From the NCBI GenBank assembly GCA_025449695.1, contig JANWIW010000004.1, forward strand, positions 1-37,955: 37,955 nt of DNA. Direction: 5' to 3'. The notes beneath the pieces are model-generated. The model was given only the letters and a program-made list of their open reading frames with translations. It did no database searches and was not told where the DNA came from. Each line of letters begins with the position of its first letter. Position 1 is the first letter of the stretch. A program made the position numbers and the translations under genes. Below are positions 12,627 to 23,345 of this stretch, piece after piece. Source of the DNA: Minisyncoccota bacterium (GTDB lineage Bacteria; Patescibacteriota; Minisyncoccia; UBA6257; 2-01-FULL-56-20).

Positions 12627-12636
12627 AGAACGAGAA

Positions 12637-12733
12637 TCTGGAATTTAGAATCTGGAATCTGGATGTTTGTAATTCATAGCTACTATGTATTTGCATTCAC
12701 TAGATTCTAGATTCTAGATTCCAGATTCTAGCT
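12637..12733. repeat. Hairpin repeat (GAATCTGGAATCT-type words), copy 1, between rnc and smc
   Basis: gagaatctggaatttagaatctggaatctgg ... ctagattctagattctagattccagattctag. Confidence 0.85.
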
Positions 12734-13417
12734 ACCGTATCTTTCGAGTGCCTTCCGCGCCGCTTCTAGCTCGGCTTCCTGCTTGGAGTTGCCGCTGCCC
12801 GTGGCCGCGATCGCGCCGGCGAACTTCACCCCGATCGTGAACATGCGCTGGTGGGCAGGGCCGGATTCGGACACCACCTCGTAAGTGGGCGTCTCCCGGA
12901 AACGCTCCTGGATCAGCTCCTGCAGCGCGCTCTTCGGGTCCTTGTAGCTCTTGGTACGCACGATCTCTTCCACCCTTCCCATGAGGAATTGATCCACGAA
13001 CTTCGATACCGCCTCGAAGCCCTGGTCGAGATAGATCGCCCCGACGAGGGACTCGAAAGCATTCGCCAGGATGACCTCCTTGGCCCGCTGATTGTCGCCG
13101 CGCTCGCCTTTGGACATGAGCACAAACTCCTCCATGCCGAGCTCCGCGGCGATCTTGCCCAATATCTGATAGTTCACGAGCGCCGCGCGGACCACGGTGA
13201 GCTGGCCTTCCGGGAAATCCGGATAGAGGCGGTAAAGCTTCTCCGAGACCGCGAGCTCAAGCACCGCGTCGCCCAGGTATTCCAGGCGCTCATTGTGCGG
13301 CACCGGCCAGTTCGGCTGCTCGTTCAGATAAGAGCGATGCGTGAGGGCTTCCTTCAAGAGGTTCAGGTCGCGGAAGCGGAAACTGATGGTCGTTTCGAAA
13401 GGAGTGATGTCTTTCAT
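12728..13417 (-). CDS. rnc: ribonuclease III
   Basis: LKEALTHRSYLNEQPNWPVPHNERLEYLGDAVLELAVSEKLY...; dsRBD C-terminus. Confidence 0.95.
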   Translation of the reverse strand: MKDITPFETTISFRFRDLNLLKEALTHRSYLNEQPNWPVPHNERLEYLGDAVLELAVSEKLYRLYPDFPEGQLTVVRAALVNYQILGKIAAELGMEEFVLMSKGERGDNQRAKEVILANAFESLVGAIYLDQGFEAVSKFVDQFLMGRVEEIVRTKSYKDPKSALQELIQERFRETPTYEVVSESGPAHQRMFTIGVKFAGAIAATGSGNSKQEAELEAARKALERYGS

Positions 13418-13424
13418 AGGAAGC

Positions 13425-13492
13425 AGAATCTGGAATCTGGTATTTGGAATCTAGGATGCATAAGATTCCAGATTCAAGATTCTAGATTCTTG
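13425..13492. repeat. Hairpin repeat copy 2 (rnc/nusB junction, overlaps nusB 3' end)
   Basis: gaatctggaatctggtatttggaatctagg ... gattccagattcaagattctagattct; supplies the nusB stop codon. Confidence 0.85.
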
Positions 13493-13956
13493 GGCGGAGG
13501 CGGTGAGCTTGGCGAGTTTGCGGCCGGCGGGGGCTCCCCGGCCTTCCGTTCCCGGTAGACGGTGCCCAGCACGCCGTTCACGAAGCGGCTGGAGTTCGGC
13601 CCGCCGTAGTTCTTCGCCATCTCGATGGCTTCGTTGATGGCCACCTTGGGCGGCACCTCCTCGGGATCCGCGTACAAAAGCTCGCAGAGCCCGATGCGCA
13701 GGATGTTGCGGTCGATGGCGGCGATCTTCTCGAGCGGCCACTCCGGCGCGGCCTTGGTGAGGATGTCATCTATCTCCGTGCGGTTGTCTATGATGCCTTT
13801 CAGTATCTTCCAGGCGAACTCCGGTTCGTCGATGCCGGGCGCGAACTCAGCCAGGTTCCGTTCGAGGATCATGGTGATATCCGTTTTCTGATGATAAAAA
13901 TCCCACTCATAGAGGGATTGCAGGAGTACGGTGCGGATGAGATGCCGGGTGGCCAT
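13474..13956 (-). CDS. nusB: transcription antitermination factor NusB
   Basis: [21 protein letters not shown]...[56 protein letters not shown]. Confidence 0.93.
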
Positions 13957-15039: not shown

Positions 15040-15103
15040 AGGTTACAGGTTATAGGTTATAGGTTCAATAAAAGACCCTTCTGTCACCTAAAACCTGTAA
15101 CCT
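15040..15103. repeat. Word-type hairpin repeat (ACAGGTTATAGGTT words)
   Basis: aaggttacaggttataggttataggttc ... cacctaaaacctgtaacctat. Confidence 0.7.
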
Positions 15104-20172: not shown

Positions 20173-20280
20173 CTGATTCAATCAGACAAAGTTTAATTGA
20201 TCCACGCACAGCTTCCGCTACGCGTGCCTTGTTACGACTTAGCCCATGTCACCGAGCTCGGGCTGACCCCCCACGGAAAC

Positions 20281-20353
20281 GAGAATCTGGAATCTAGTAG
20301 CTGGAATCTAGTATTCCTACCAGATTCAAGATTCAAGATTCAAGATTCCAATC
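20281..20353. repeat. Hairpin repeat copy 3, inside 16S helix 44/V9
   Basis: gagaatctggaatctagtagctggaatctag ... ccagattcaagattcaagattcaagattccaatctc. Confidence 0.85.
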
Positions 20354-20400
20354 TCGGTGGGAGGCTTTACCCGCTCCCGGCTCCCTTGGCTTGACGGGCG

Positions 20401-21283
20401 ATTATCTTCCCTAAAACAGGGAATGGATGTTCCCACCGCACGGACGGATTTCCCGTATGCGGCGAGCTCAATGCATCTGCTGCTTCAGTTGCAGCAATCT
20501 TTCCAAGCCTTCCGGAGTTAGATGTTGGCCTTTCTCGATAGCTTCGAGCAAGCCGCAGAAGATCCGGAAATCCTTCAGCTTTGAAGGGAACCGAAGGTGA
20601 TTTTTCATGAAGAAAGGAATGATTATTTTCAGGAGATCGCGTCGGTTGAAAACCTCGTATCGGTAACAATCTTGATGGTTTCGCCGACTATCTCTCTGGA
20701 AATACACTTCCCCGCATCTGAAATACTCCCTCAAATCTTCCAGTATCTCTTTATCTTTCTCGACAAGCTTGACATAGAACCTAGGTTCTACTCGCGCTCG
20801 CCGAATATATTCCGTGCTTGAGGTCGGGCTGCGAATAAAAGCAGTAAAACTGCCTTCGCCGTCAACCAAACCGACTATATAATCTGCTGTCAACATTGAG
20901 TGAGTGCCTTCCTCTGGCAGTGTGCCAAAGTACTATGACTCAGCTGACTTCTGGTGCTGCGTCAGTTTTAACTATATTATCCTCCAAAGCCGCGTTCCAA
21001 AACGAGGCTTGGGGATAAACAGACACCAGATCTCCATAGGTCAGTTACAAGGCTTTTCCTTGCATCCCGGCGCGGTTCCTTTTTTGATCTTCGCCATGCT
21101 CACCGCCTATCCATGGCTCGATCTCCGCTCCACGCTATCGTGGCATGCCGGGCTGCGGTTTGCGTCCGGATCCTCCACCGCAATTCTCACGAATTGCGGC
21201 TATCCTTCCGCTACGCTCCAGTAGACGCACTGAAGGGGCTGATTTTAACAGCCTAGTCTTGCAACCTGCTACGCGCTTTTATT
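20401..21283 (-). mobile_element. Intron in 16S rRNA at about E. coli position 1399/1400 (class not determined)
   Basis: Antisense gacgggcg | 883 nt | gtgagtacaggactcgagaacg interrupts the universal gacgggcggtgtgtaca block; contains a LAGLIDADG ORF. Confidence 0.88.
20468..20896 (-). CDS. LAGLIDADG homing endonuclease encoded in the 16S intron
   Basis: MLTADYIVGLVDGEGSFTAFIRS...VEPRFYVKLVEKDKEILEDLREYF. Confidence 0.88.
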   Translation of the reverse strand: MLTADYIVGLVDGEGSFTAFIRSPTSSTEYIRRARVEPRFYVKLVEKDKEILEDLREYFRCGEVYFQRDSRRNHQDCYRYEVFNRRDLLKIIIPFFMKNHLRFPSKLKDFRIFCGLLEAIEKGQHLTPEGLERLLQLKQQMH

Positions 21284-21533
21284 GTGAGTACAGGACTCGA
21301 GAACGTATTCACCGTGGTATAGCTGACCCACGATTACTAGCAATTCCAGCTTCATGGGGGCGAGTTGCAGCCCCCAATCCGAACTAGGACGCGGTTTAAG
21401 GGATTAGCTCCACCTTTCGGTTTGGCAGCCCATTGTCCGCGCCATTGTAACATGAGTGTAGCCCCGGGCATCAGAGGGCCATGCTGATTTGACGTCATCC
21501 CCTCCTTCCTCCCAGCCTGAAGGGCGCGAATAC

Positions 21534-21610
21534 AAGAATCTGGTATCTAGAATCTGGAATCTGGTAGGAACGTGTCCTTGCTAGATTCTAGATTCAAGAT
21601 TCTAGATTCT
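21534..21610. repeat. Hairpin repeat copy 4, inside 16S helix 40 (V7)
   Basis: agaatctggtatctagaatctggaatctgg ... gctagattctagattcaagattctagattct. Confidence 0.85.
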
Positions 21611-21703
21611 GCTCCCGCTCTTTAGGCTGGGCAGTCCTCCGTGACACTTGTAACACGGAGCAGGGGTTGCGCTCGTTACCCCAATTAAGGGAACGCCTCA
21701 CGG

Positions 21704-21735
<32 letters not shown>

Positions 21736-21862
21736 CTTGGGGTCCCTTGCGGGAAAGGCAATGTTTCCATCGCCGGTCTCCAAGCATTTCAAGCCCGGGT
21801 GAGGTTCTTCGTTCATCGTCGAATTAAACCTCATGTTCCACTGCTTGTGCGAGTCCCCGTCT

Positions 21863-21894
<32 letters not shown>

Positions 21895-22522
21895 TCCCAG
21901 GCGGCCTGCTTAACGCGTTAGCTCCGCCACTCCGAGGGTCGATACTCGAAACAGCAAGCAGGCATCGTTTAGGGCGTGGACTACAAGGGTATCTAATCCT
22001 TTTTGATCCCCACGCTTTCGTGTTTCAGAGTCAGGTACGCGCCAGCGAGTTGCCTTCGCCTTTGGTGTTCCCCACGATATCAACGGATTTCACCCCTACA
22101 CCGTGAGTTCCATGCACCTCTCACCTCCTCCAGTCCGATCGTATCTCCGGCACTTCCACCGTTAGGCAGTGGGCTTTAACCAGAGACGCATCGGACCTCC
22201 TACACGCGCTTTACGCCCAATAAATCCGGATAACGCTTGTGGTCTACGTATTACCGCTGGTGCTGGCACGTAGTTACCAACCACTTTCCGCTAGGTGATC
22301 ACCGAAGTTTCTGCCTAGCTACCGCAGTTTACGACCCGAAGGCCTTCATCCTGCACGCGGCGTCGCTCGATCAGACTTTCGTCCATTGTCGAATATTCTC
22401 GACTGCTGCCTCCCGTAGGAGTACGAGCCGTGTCTCAGTCTCGTCGTTGGGGGTCAGGCTCTCACCTCCCCTACCGGTCATAGCCTTGGTAAGCCGTTAC
22501 CTTACCAACTAGCTGATCGGAC

Positions 22523-22819
22523 CTAAGCCGATCTCAGAGTGCCAGCCTCACTTTTGACCTTCTGCAGTAAGCTTCTGTGGATTCTTTTCATGAGCTCGTG
22601 CTTTGAGCTGCCATGATGCTTAAGTCTCGATTCACGCTTTCGCGCATCACTCTCATTGCGATACGCTTCAGCGTAAACCAATTTCCATTCTCCGGAACTA
22701 CGCCGAGTTGACGGGTTCAGGTTCCGTTTATGAGAATCGAGACGCTTCGCTAAATCCTTCGTGAAACCAATGTAGATTTTGTGATTAACCGAGTGTTGGA
22801 TGATGTAGACCACATACAT
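22523..22819 (-). CDS. GIY-YIG nuclease ORF inside 16S V2 insertion
   Basis: MYVVYIIQHSVNHKIYIGFTKDLAKRLDSHKRNLNPSTRRSSGEWKLVYAEAYRNESDARKRESRLKHHGSSKHELMKR. Confidence 0.85.
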   Translation of the reverse strand: MYVVYIIQHSVNHKIYIGFTKDLAKRLDSHKRNLNPSTRRSSGEWKLVYAEAYRNESDARKRESRLKHHGSSKHELMKRIHRSLLQKVKSEAGTLRSA

Positions 22820-22856
22820 TTCATCATCGTAGCACAAGGTCAAAAGTGAAGCTGGC
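22541..22856 (-). mobile_element. Long-stem insertion in 16S h10/V2 carrying the GIY-YIG ORF
   Basis: gccagcctcacttttgacctt (22541-22561) and aaggtcaaaagtgaagctggc (22836-22856): 21-bp stem with one mismatch (G.U in RNA). Confidence 0.75.
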
Positions 22857-23345
22857 TTTACCGGTGAAGGACCATCGGGTATTACCCCGCCTTTCGGCGG
22901 ACTATTCCCGGCTCTGAGGTACGTACTAGGGTGTTACTAACTCGTTCGCCGCTAAACTATCCAATCCGCATTCTTGATGTAATCGCAAATCCTTCAAAGA
23001 TAGTTCCGCTCGACTTGCATGCCTTATCCACGCCGCCAGCGTTCATCCTGGACCAGGATCAAATCCTCTAATATAAATCTGTTCCGCCGAAGCGGGTCAC
23101 AGCTCCTTAAGCCTGCCGAAGCTCCTGCAAAGCAGGAAGCCGGGAAGACCGGGAACCATGCAGATAGTGCGCACTTTTTAGTTTAATTCCAAACCGTGCA
23201 CGAAAAAATGAATGCATTGGGACAGCGAAAAAACTCTCTTTCGCATATGCGTAATTTCATAACTGCTCCACCTCGGCACGGCCGGTAAATGGAACCTGTT
23301 TTTCAAAGAAAGCCGCTTCCTCCGTAAGGAGAAAAGCGCTTGTCT

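Follow-up and report, generated by a model that had tools for sequence, protein, structure and literature searches.

The locus studied here raises the question of how a hairpin found in the spacers between protein-coding genes can also sit inside the 16S rRNA gene of the same bacterium, and what kind of element it represents. The window, i.e. the whole stretch of 37,955 nucleotides that was analysed, belongs to the draft genome G000 (983,527 bases in 37 contigs, 92.7% complete) of a small uncultured bacterium, which was placed through its relatives as CPR (Candidate Phyla Radiation)/Parcubacteria-like. An earlier note had described four hairpins in the window, and all of them are present: in 4/4 cases two inverted 28-nt arms consist of four heptads each, with the plus-strand consensus GAATCTN in the left and NAGATTC in the right arm. 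The hairpins lie (i) in the gap between rnc and smc (12634 to 12728; arms 12634-12661 and 12701-12728, loop of 39 nt), (ii) at the junction of nusB and rnc (13426 to 13489; arms 13426-13453 and 13462-13489, loop of 8 nt), where the end of the nusB reading frame (13474-13956) is overlapped, (iii) on the minus strand at the presumed tip of helix h44 of the 16S rRNA (20283 to 20348; arms 20283-20310 and 20321-20348, loop of 10 nt), and (iv) on the same strand in helix h40 (21536 to 21609; arms 21536-21563 and 21582-21609, loop of 18 nt). The word CTAGATTC occurs 10 times in the window as compared to 0.9 expected copies, a number reached in 0/100 shuffles. The protein-coding genes follow each other in the order nusB, rnc, smc, and rnc, which encodes RNase III (12728 to 13417, minus strand; Pfam Ribonuclease_3 and dsrm), has one heptad hairpin on either side. 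These flanking hairpins (12634-13489) could be sites of self-cleavage or autoregulation, and the encoded RNase III is a candidate for the processing of heptad hairpins.

A dispersed family of four-heptad arms

A whole-genome census of the word, which the earlier note had named as a check, revealed a dispersed family: the host genome contains 123 exact dimers of AGATTCNAGATTC as compared to 0 for the reversed control. The arms were studied in detail in 366 kb of host sequence picked for containing elements, completed by whole-genome pattern counts. In this sample, exactly four heptads were present in 55/72 arms of three or more units, and still in 55/76 if two-unit chains were admitted. Position 3 of the heptad is A in 220/220 units and position 1 is G in 219/220, position 7 being free. 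The arm pairs that are at most 60 nt apart are convergent in 27/27 cases (forward, then reverse), none being divergent or tandem; single arms without a partner occur as well. With their dispersed palindromic copies, their high number and their mainly extragenic location, the hairpins resemble REP sequences.

The architecture is found beyond the host. A scan for perfect hairpins missed the families of the relatives, which were recovered by a scan for arrays with a lag of 7 nt: such arrays stand out above other lags in many relatives, and none was found in 50 kb of E. coli. Other heptad words likewise give arrays of about 28-30 nt. Among contigs that had been chosen by a four-unit pattern, exactly four units of the same word were found in 20/21 arms of at least four units in other CPR bacteria, whereas array length is variable outside the CPR (four units in 33/88; Fisher p = 9e-7). 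Longer tandem arrays of the type (AGATTCN)n are present in Vibrio, Bacteroidales, Clostridiales, Thioalkalivibrio and other groups, with up to 32 units (L201, L187, L199, L243 and others). In two loci, GTATCTG arrays expanded to 11-12 units replace a left arm (L066 11027-11110; L071 16763-16839); such expanded arrays break the rule of four units and point to slippage. What makes up the element is an architecture, i.e. inverted arms of 4 x 7 nt, and not one sequence.

Heptad hairpins in rRNA helices and protein loops

The 16S rRNA gene (20190 to 23074, minus strand; Rfam RF00177 and blastn to relatives and E. coli), of which one copy was detected in the 92.7% complete draft genome, is broken up by the two heptad hairpins as well as by two insertions of the homing-endonuclease type. 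Mapping by blastn to the E. coli (Ec) 16S placed the hairpins between Ec 1114 and 1174, which we take to be h40, and between Ec 1399 and 1481, presumably the tip of h44. On both sides of the inserts the 16S sequence continues with about 85-90% identity to relatives. RNA folding predicts that either insert extends the stem of its host helix (z = -5.7 for h40, z = -7.9 for h44). Two proposals of the earlier note are borne out, the second as a prediction: a single family occupies the spacers and two 16S helices, and the inserts lengthen existing helices. None of the Rfam introns was found at the two hairpin sites, and in having stem-loop inserts in variable rRNA helices, with no splicing intron there, the gene resembles those that carry intervening sequences (IVSs). 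The hairpin at the h44 tip was absent from every other 16S compared and is confined to G000.

The larger insertions are of a different kind. The one at 20390-21290 (minus strand), located after Ec 1399, carries a LAGLIDADG_1 reading frame (20468 to 20896, minus strand; Pfam E 3.3e-14) and, just upstream of this frame, a weak match to group II intron domains D1-D4 at 20905-20986 (RF01998; 29.4 bits, below the gathering cut-off of 35). This insertion is the LHE-encoding group II-like type at position 1400 of Tsurumaki et al. 2024 (PMC11270868). Part of its sequence is common to G003, and G024, which is of the same genus as G003, appears to be without it. In the 5' part of the gene, a GIY-YIG endonuclease reading frame (22523 to 22843, minus strand; Pfam E 2.2e-16) lies inside the second insertion (22497-22870, minus strand; about 300 nt), which appears as a 308-nt insert in the RF00177 alignment and was not detected as an intron.

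The comparison with relatives shows that h40 is extended in most members of the family: the base of the stem is conserved (e.g. GCCCCCGCTAAAG / CTTTAGCGGGGG), and the distal arms are replaced. A significant 7-nt period with other words was detected in the distal h40 of G002, G003, G024, G026, G027, G032 and G042. Seven family members have heptad hairpins at this site, and in six of them the hairpin is clearly built from the word that is dispersed in the host itself, the enrichment being weaker in G024. In counts that relied on patterns chosen by hand from each h40 insert and that include the h40 copy itself, the word of G000 is present 123 times in its own genome and at most once elsewhere in its family; the corresponding numbers are 51 vs at most 14 for G002, 22 vs at most 2 for G026, 10 vs at most 2 for G003, 9 vs at most 1 for G027, 7 vs at most 1 for G032 and 8 vs at most 4 for G024, in which the match to the own word is partial. 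The 14 matches of the G002 pattern in G000 belong to another repeat, an exact ACTACTC tandem that is likewise picked up by the reversed control; exact ACTACTC arrays lie on contigs C7, C13 and C16 of G000 and are unlike the degenerate four-unit arms. Even species of the same genus have different words at the same h40 site, as seen for G003 and G024 and for G026 and G032. Short h40 extensions without heptads were found in G001, G004, G010 and G023, in whose sampled stretches lag-7 arrays are rare or absent. There are two exceptions: G029 has a short heptad-like h40 yet no array in the sample, and G038 has arrays and a non-heptad h40. The h40 insert of G038 (L037) has a period of 8-9 nt and contains AAGTGGGTTCGAATCCACTT, a look-alike of a tRNA T-arm.

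The idea of the earlier note that the 16S rRNA had been invaded holds as far as the presence of the inserts is concerned, but an insert in h40 is not unique to this genome, since most relatives are extended there and several have other heptad words. The note had also reasoned that unrelated sequence of similar length at both sites in relatives, with no genome-wide family, would speak against an invasion. At h40 the relatives indeed differ in sequence from G000, but the word of each is tied to a genome-wide family; the case is therefore strengthened, although half of this counter-evidence was found. The 16S h40 is a hotspot across the family, and the fact that relatives fill it with genome-wide words of their own suggests that this class of hairpins may colonise rRNA repeatedly.

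Neither the 16S rRNA nor the rRNA as a whole is the only place inside genes. The 23S rRNA of G032 has hairpins of its own word at Ec ~280, ~1184 and ~1704, and in the 23S of G000 a second word family, AGGTTNN, forms a hairpin at Ec ~285; an array of the same kind is present in the window (15040 to 15064, plus strand). Heptad inserts were also found in the 23S of G003 and G027; since pairwise global alignment fragments the insertions in the intron-rich 23S of G000 and G003, only inserts bearing heptads were counted. In protein-coding genes, named from recognisable protein context, the reading frame runs through a single 28-nt arm in uvrC, valS, tsaD and iscS, and through two such arms in mnmA. 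Alignment with relatives places these arms in variable, often gapped loops, and the same loop of mnmA contains an array of G024's own word in G024. In G003, arms are present inside a gene that reads like ksgA/rsmA.

Origin and fate of the arms

Taken together, we consider it probable that the hairpins of the window represent a dispersed bacterial class in which the 4 x 7 architecture persists while a largely genome-specific word turns over between related species. The sequences, the distribution, the architecture, the match to the own word and the predicted folds were observed directly; recurrent insertion or replacement would account for the situation at h40. In an element of this class, an unrelated loop would be enclosed by a pair of inverted 28-nt arms, each made of four degenerate heptads, and the targets of the element would be intergenic spacers, in-frame protein loops and the tips of surface-exposed rRNA helices. 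In the rRNA, the inverted arms would form their own stem atop the host helix (h40 and h44, and several 23S helices in relatives). As this stem would stand on a peripheral helix, the core fold of the rRNA can be kept and the hairpin could persist. It is likely that the inserts are tolerated because of the peripheral position of the sites, and they are probably retained in the working ribosome as a rigid extension or at most nicked by RNase III.

How the arms arise is a more difficult matter. The 55 four-unit arms behave as independent draws of the columns (pairwise-distance variance p = 0.82; 50 distinct arms vs 49.7 expected), and the 20 loops compared had no similarity to one another; MITE-like copy lineages were rejected on these grounds. 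A burst of copying followed by neutral mutation would yield the independence of the columns but not the constraint at specific positions of the register. Rather than being copied from one another, the arms seem to have been drawn independently from a profile, which is not what ordinary transposition predicts. Moreover, complementarity between partner arms is no higher than that between arms of different hairpins (permutation p = 0.85), thus indicating that pairing at the variable positions is not kept by compensatory change; a selected RNA pairing via co-variation of the arms was rejected for the same reason. The positions of the elements turn over quickly, since for 14/19 arrays of G003 the orthologous place in G024 is without an array. 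This observation also disfavours a concerted change of the word at fixed sites. In the orthologous empty regions, the divergence of the intergenic flanks is too strong for junctions or target-site duplications to be made out. The distribution suggests that the elements may be mobile. REPINs need a Y1 transposase (RAYT); no match to this family (PF01797) was found in G000 (92.7% complete), and 3/17 genomes were positive. No reverse transcriptase was detected in G000 either, and this enzyme was rejected as a consistent partner because the 11/17 genomes that have it do not include G000 and G042, which are rich in arrays. It is tempting to speculate, though only tentatively, that a non-copying process draws the arms of an architecture-defined hairpin class from a lineage-specific 7-nt profile and so repeatedly rewrites rRNA helices and protein loops.

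Several other explanations have to be weighed against a dispersed class with turnover of the word. If each arm were the site of a protein that reads four heptads, i.e. a selected binding or processing motif that is not mobile, the fixed number, the fixed register positions and the independent variation would all be accounted for: every heptad is under the same position-specific constraint (G at position 1 in 219/220, A at position 3 in 220/220, position 7 free), the columns are independent and copy lineages are lacking. However, arms are also present in rRNA helices and, in frame, within essential proteins, and the location of most arms differs between species of the same genus, which suits a parasite or a by-product better than a regulon, and we regard such a motif as unlikely. 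Slippage during replication does occur, as seen from the GTATCTG arrays of 11-12 units, but the view that heptad arrays form on the spot, in variable loops prone to hairpins, and then stay where they are has very little probability: the same word is present at many unlinked places in one genome and rare in relatives, the number of units is fixed at four, and an inverted partner needs a second event with the same word. Even less credible are ordinary lineage-specific expansion segments of the rRNA or an artefact of metagenome assembly. It is true that h40 is long in nearly all family members and that the genome is a draft in 37 contigs, but the 16S continues on both sides of the inserts at the identity given above, the architecture recurs in independent assemblies, and the words of the inserts match genome-wide families.

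The classical IVS model, in which RNase III excises the hairpins after transcription and base pairing holds the fragmented 16S rRNA together, concerns the fate of the RNA and does not compete with an account of where the inserts come from. Bacterial IVSs are cut out of rRNA (cited in PMC11270868), the stems are long (about 28 bp), RNase III is encoded in the window, and some 23S sites in relatives (Ec ~550, ~1184) are at or near positions known for IVSs cut by RNase III; indeed, Tsurumaki et al. 2024 (PMC11270868) suggest this fate for those short inserts of CPR bacteria that lie at IVS sites known in the 23S. The stems are mismatched at many heptad boundaries, however, a cut inside h40 or h44 would break the 16S rRNA, and mitochondrial hairpin elements, including those of fungal and yeast genes, and yeast GC clusters have been reported as not removed from transcripts (PMC2800124). 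Excision is possible but, in our opinion, doubtful.

Relation to known systems and implications

Rickettsia palindromic elements and REP/REPIN sequences are short palindromic repeats, some of them inside open reading frames, and REPs are abundant and intergenic; unlike the hairpins described here, they have no heptad architecture. The closest analogue appears to be the P6b stem of the Nostoc tRNA-Leu(UAA) group I intron, with the heptads TDNGATT (Class I) and NNTGAGT (Class II) in variable repeat number (PMC4476775). In both cases, degenerate 7-nt words form both sides of an RNA stem, and the word is replaced in relatives while the stem is kept. The Nostoc repeats, however, are part of a spliced intron rather than of rRNA, with two classes of words and a variable number of units (PMC4476775), whereas here many words, four units per arm, locations in 16S, 23S, spacers and reading frames, and a link to genome-wide copies are found. 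The TAACTGA repeats of marine Beggiatoaceae, cyanobacteria and Bacteroidetes, the origin of which is unexplained (PMC4679880), are also dispersed heptad arrays that are mostly intergenic and rarely in reading frames. They have an exact word in direct orientation, mostly in 2-4 copies upstream of start codons, and no insertion into rRNA is described in the sections consulted; the elements of the window differ from this type in their different and degenerate words and their inverted pairs.

Like the hairpins of sponge mitochondria and the GC clusters of yeast, the scattered distribution of which suggests repeated invasions, the elements described here are dispersed in intergenic regions, occur in an rRNA gene and are divergent between taxa (PMC2800124). 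The former are mitochondrial, have no heptads and keep the sequence of their helix, with changes confined to the loops, whereas our arms vary at fixed positions of the register. In their survey of insertions in CPR rRNA genes, Tsurumaki et al. 2024 detected insertions of at least 100 bp and left short non-intron inserts without reading frames uncharacterised; neither "repeat" nor "hairpin" is mentioned in their main text (PMC11270868). Our inserts resemble this class in being short, non-intron and free of reading frames, some of them at known 23S IVS sites, but part of the uncharacterised class is traced here to dispersed heptad hairpins. The literature search, which was confined to open-access papers, found heptad hairpins described neither for CPR genomes nor for bacterial rRNA.

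Our work proposes what some of the short uncharacterised insertions in CPR rRNA are, namely dispersed genomic hairpins, which are traceable word by word. The origin of rRNA expansion segments becomes testable in this way, since one cell contains both the insert and the genomic source to which it can be matched. It is puzzling that the 4 x 7 architecture is kept while the word turns over between species and the copies are without lineage. Finally, the inserts lengthen the 16S rRNA, with h40 near V7 and h44 in V9, and could thus hide the bacteria that carry them from amplicon surveys.
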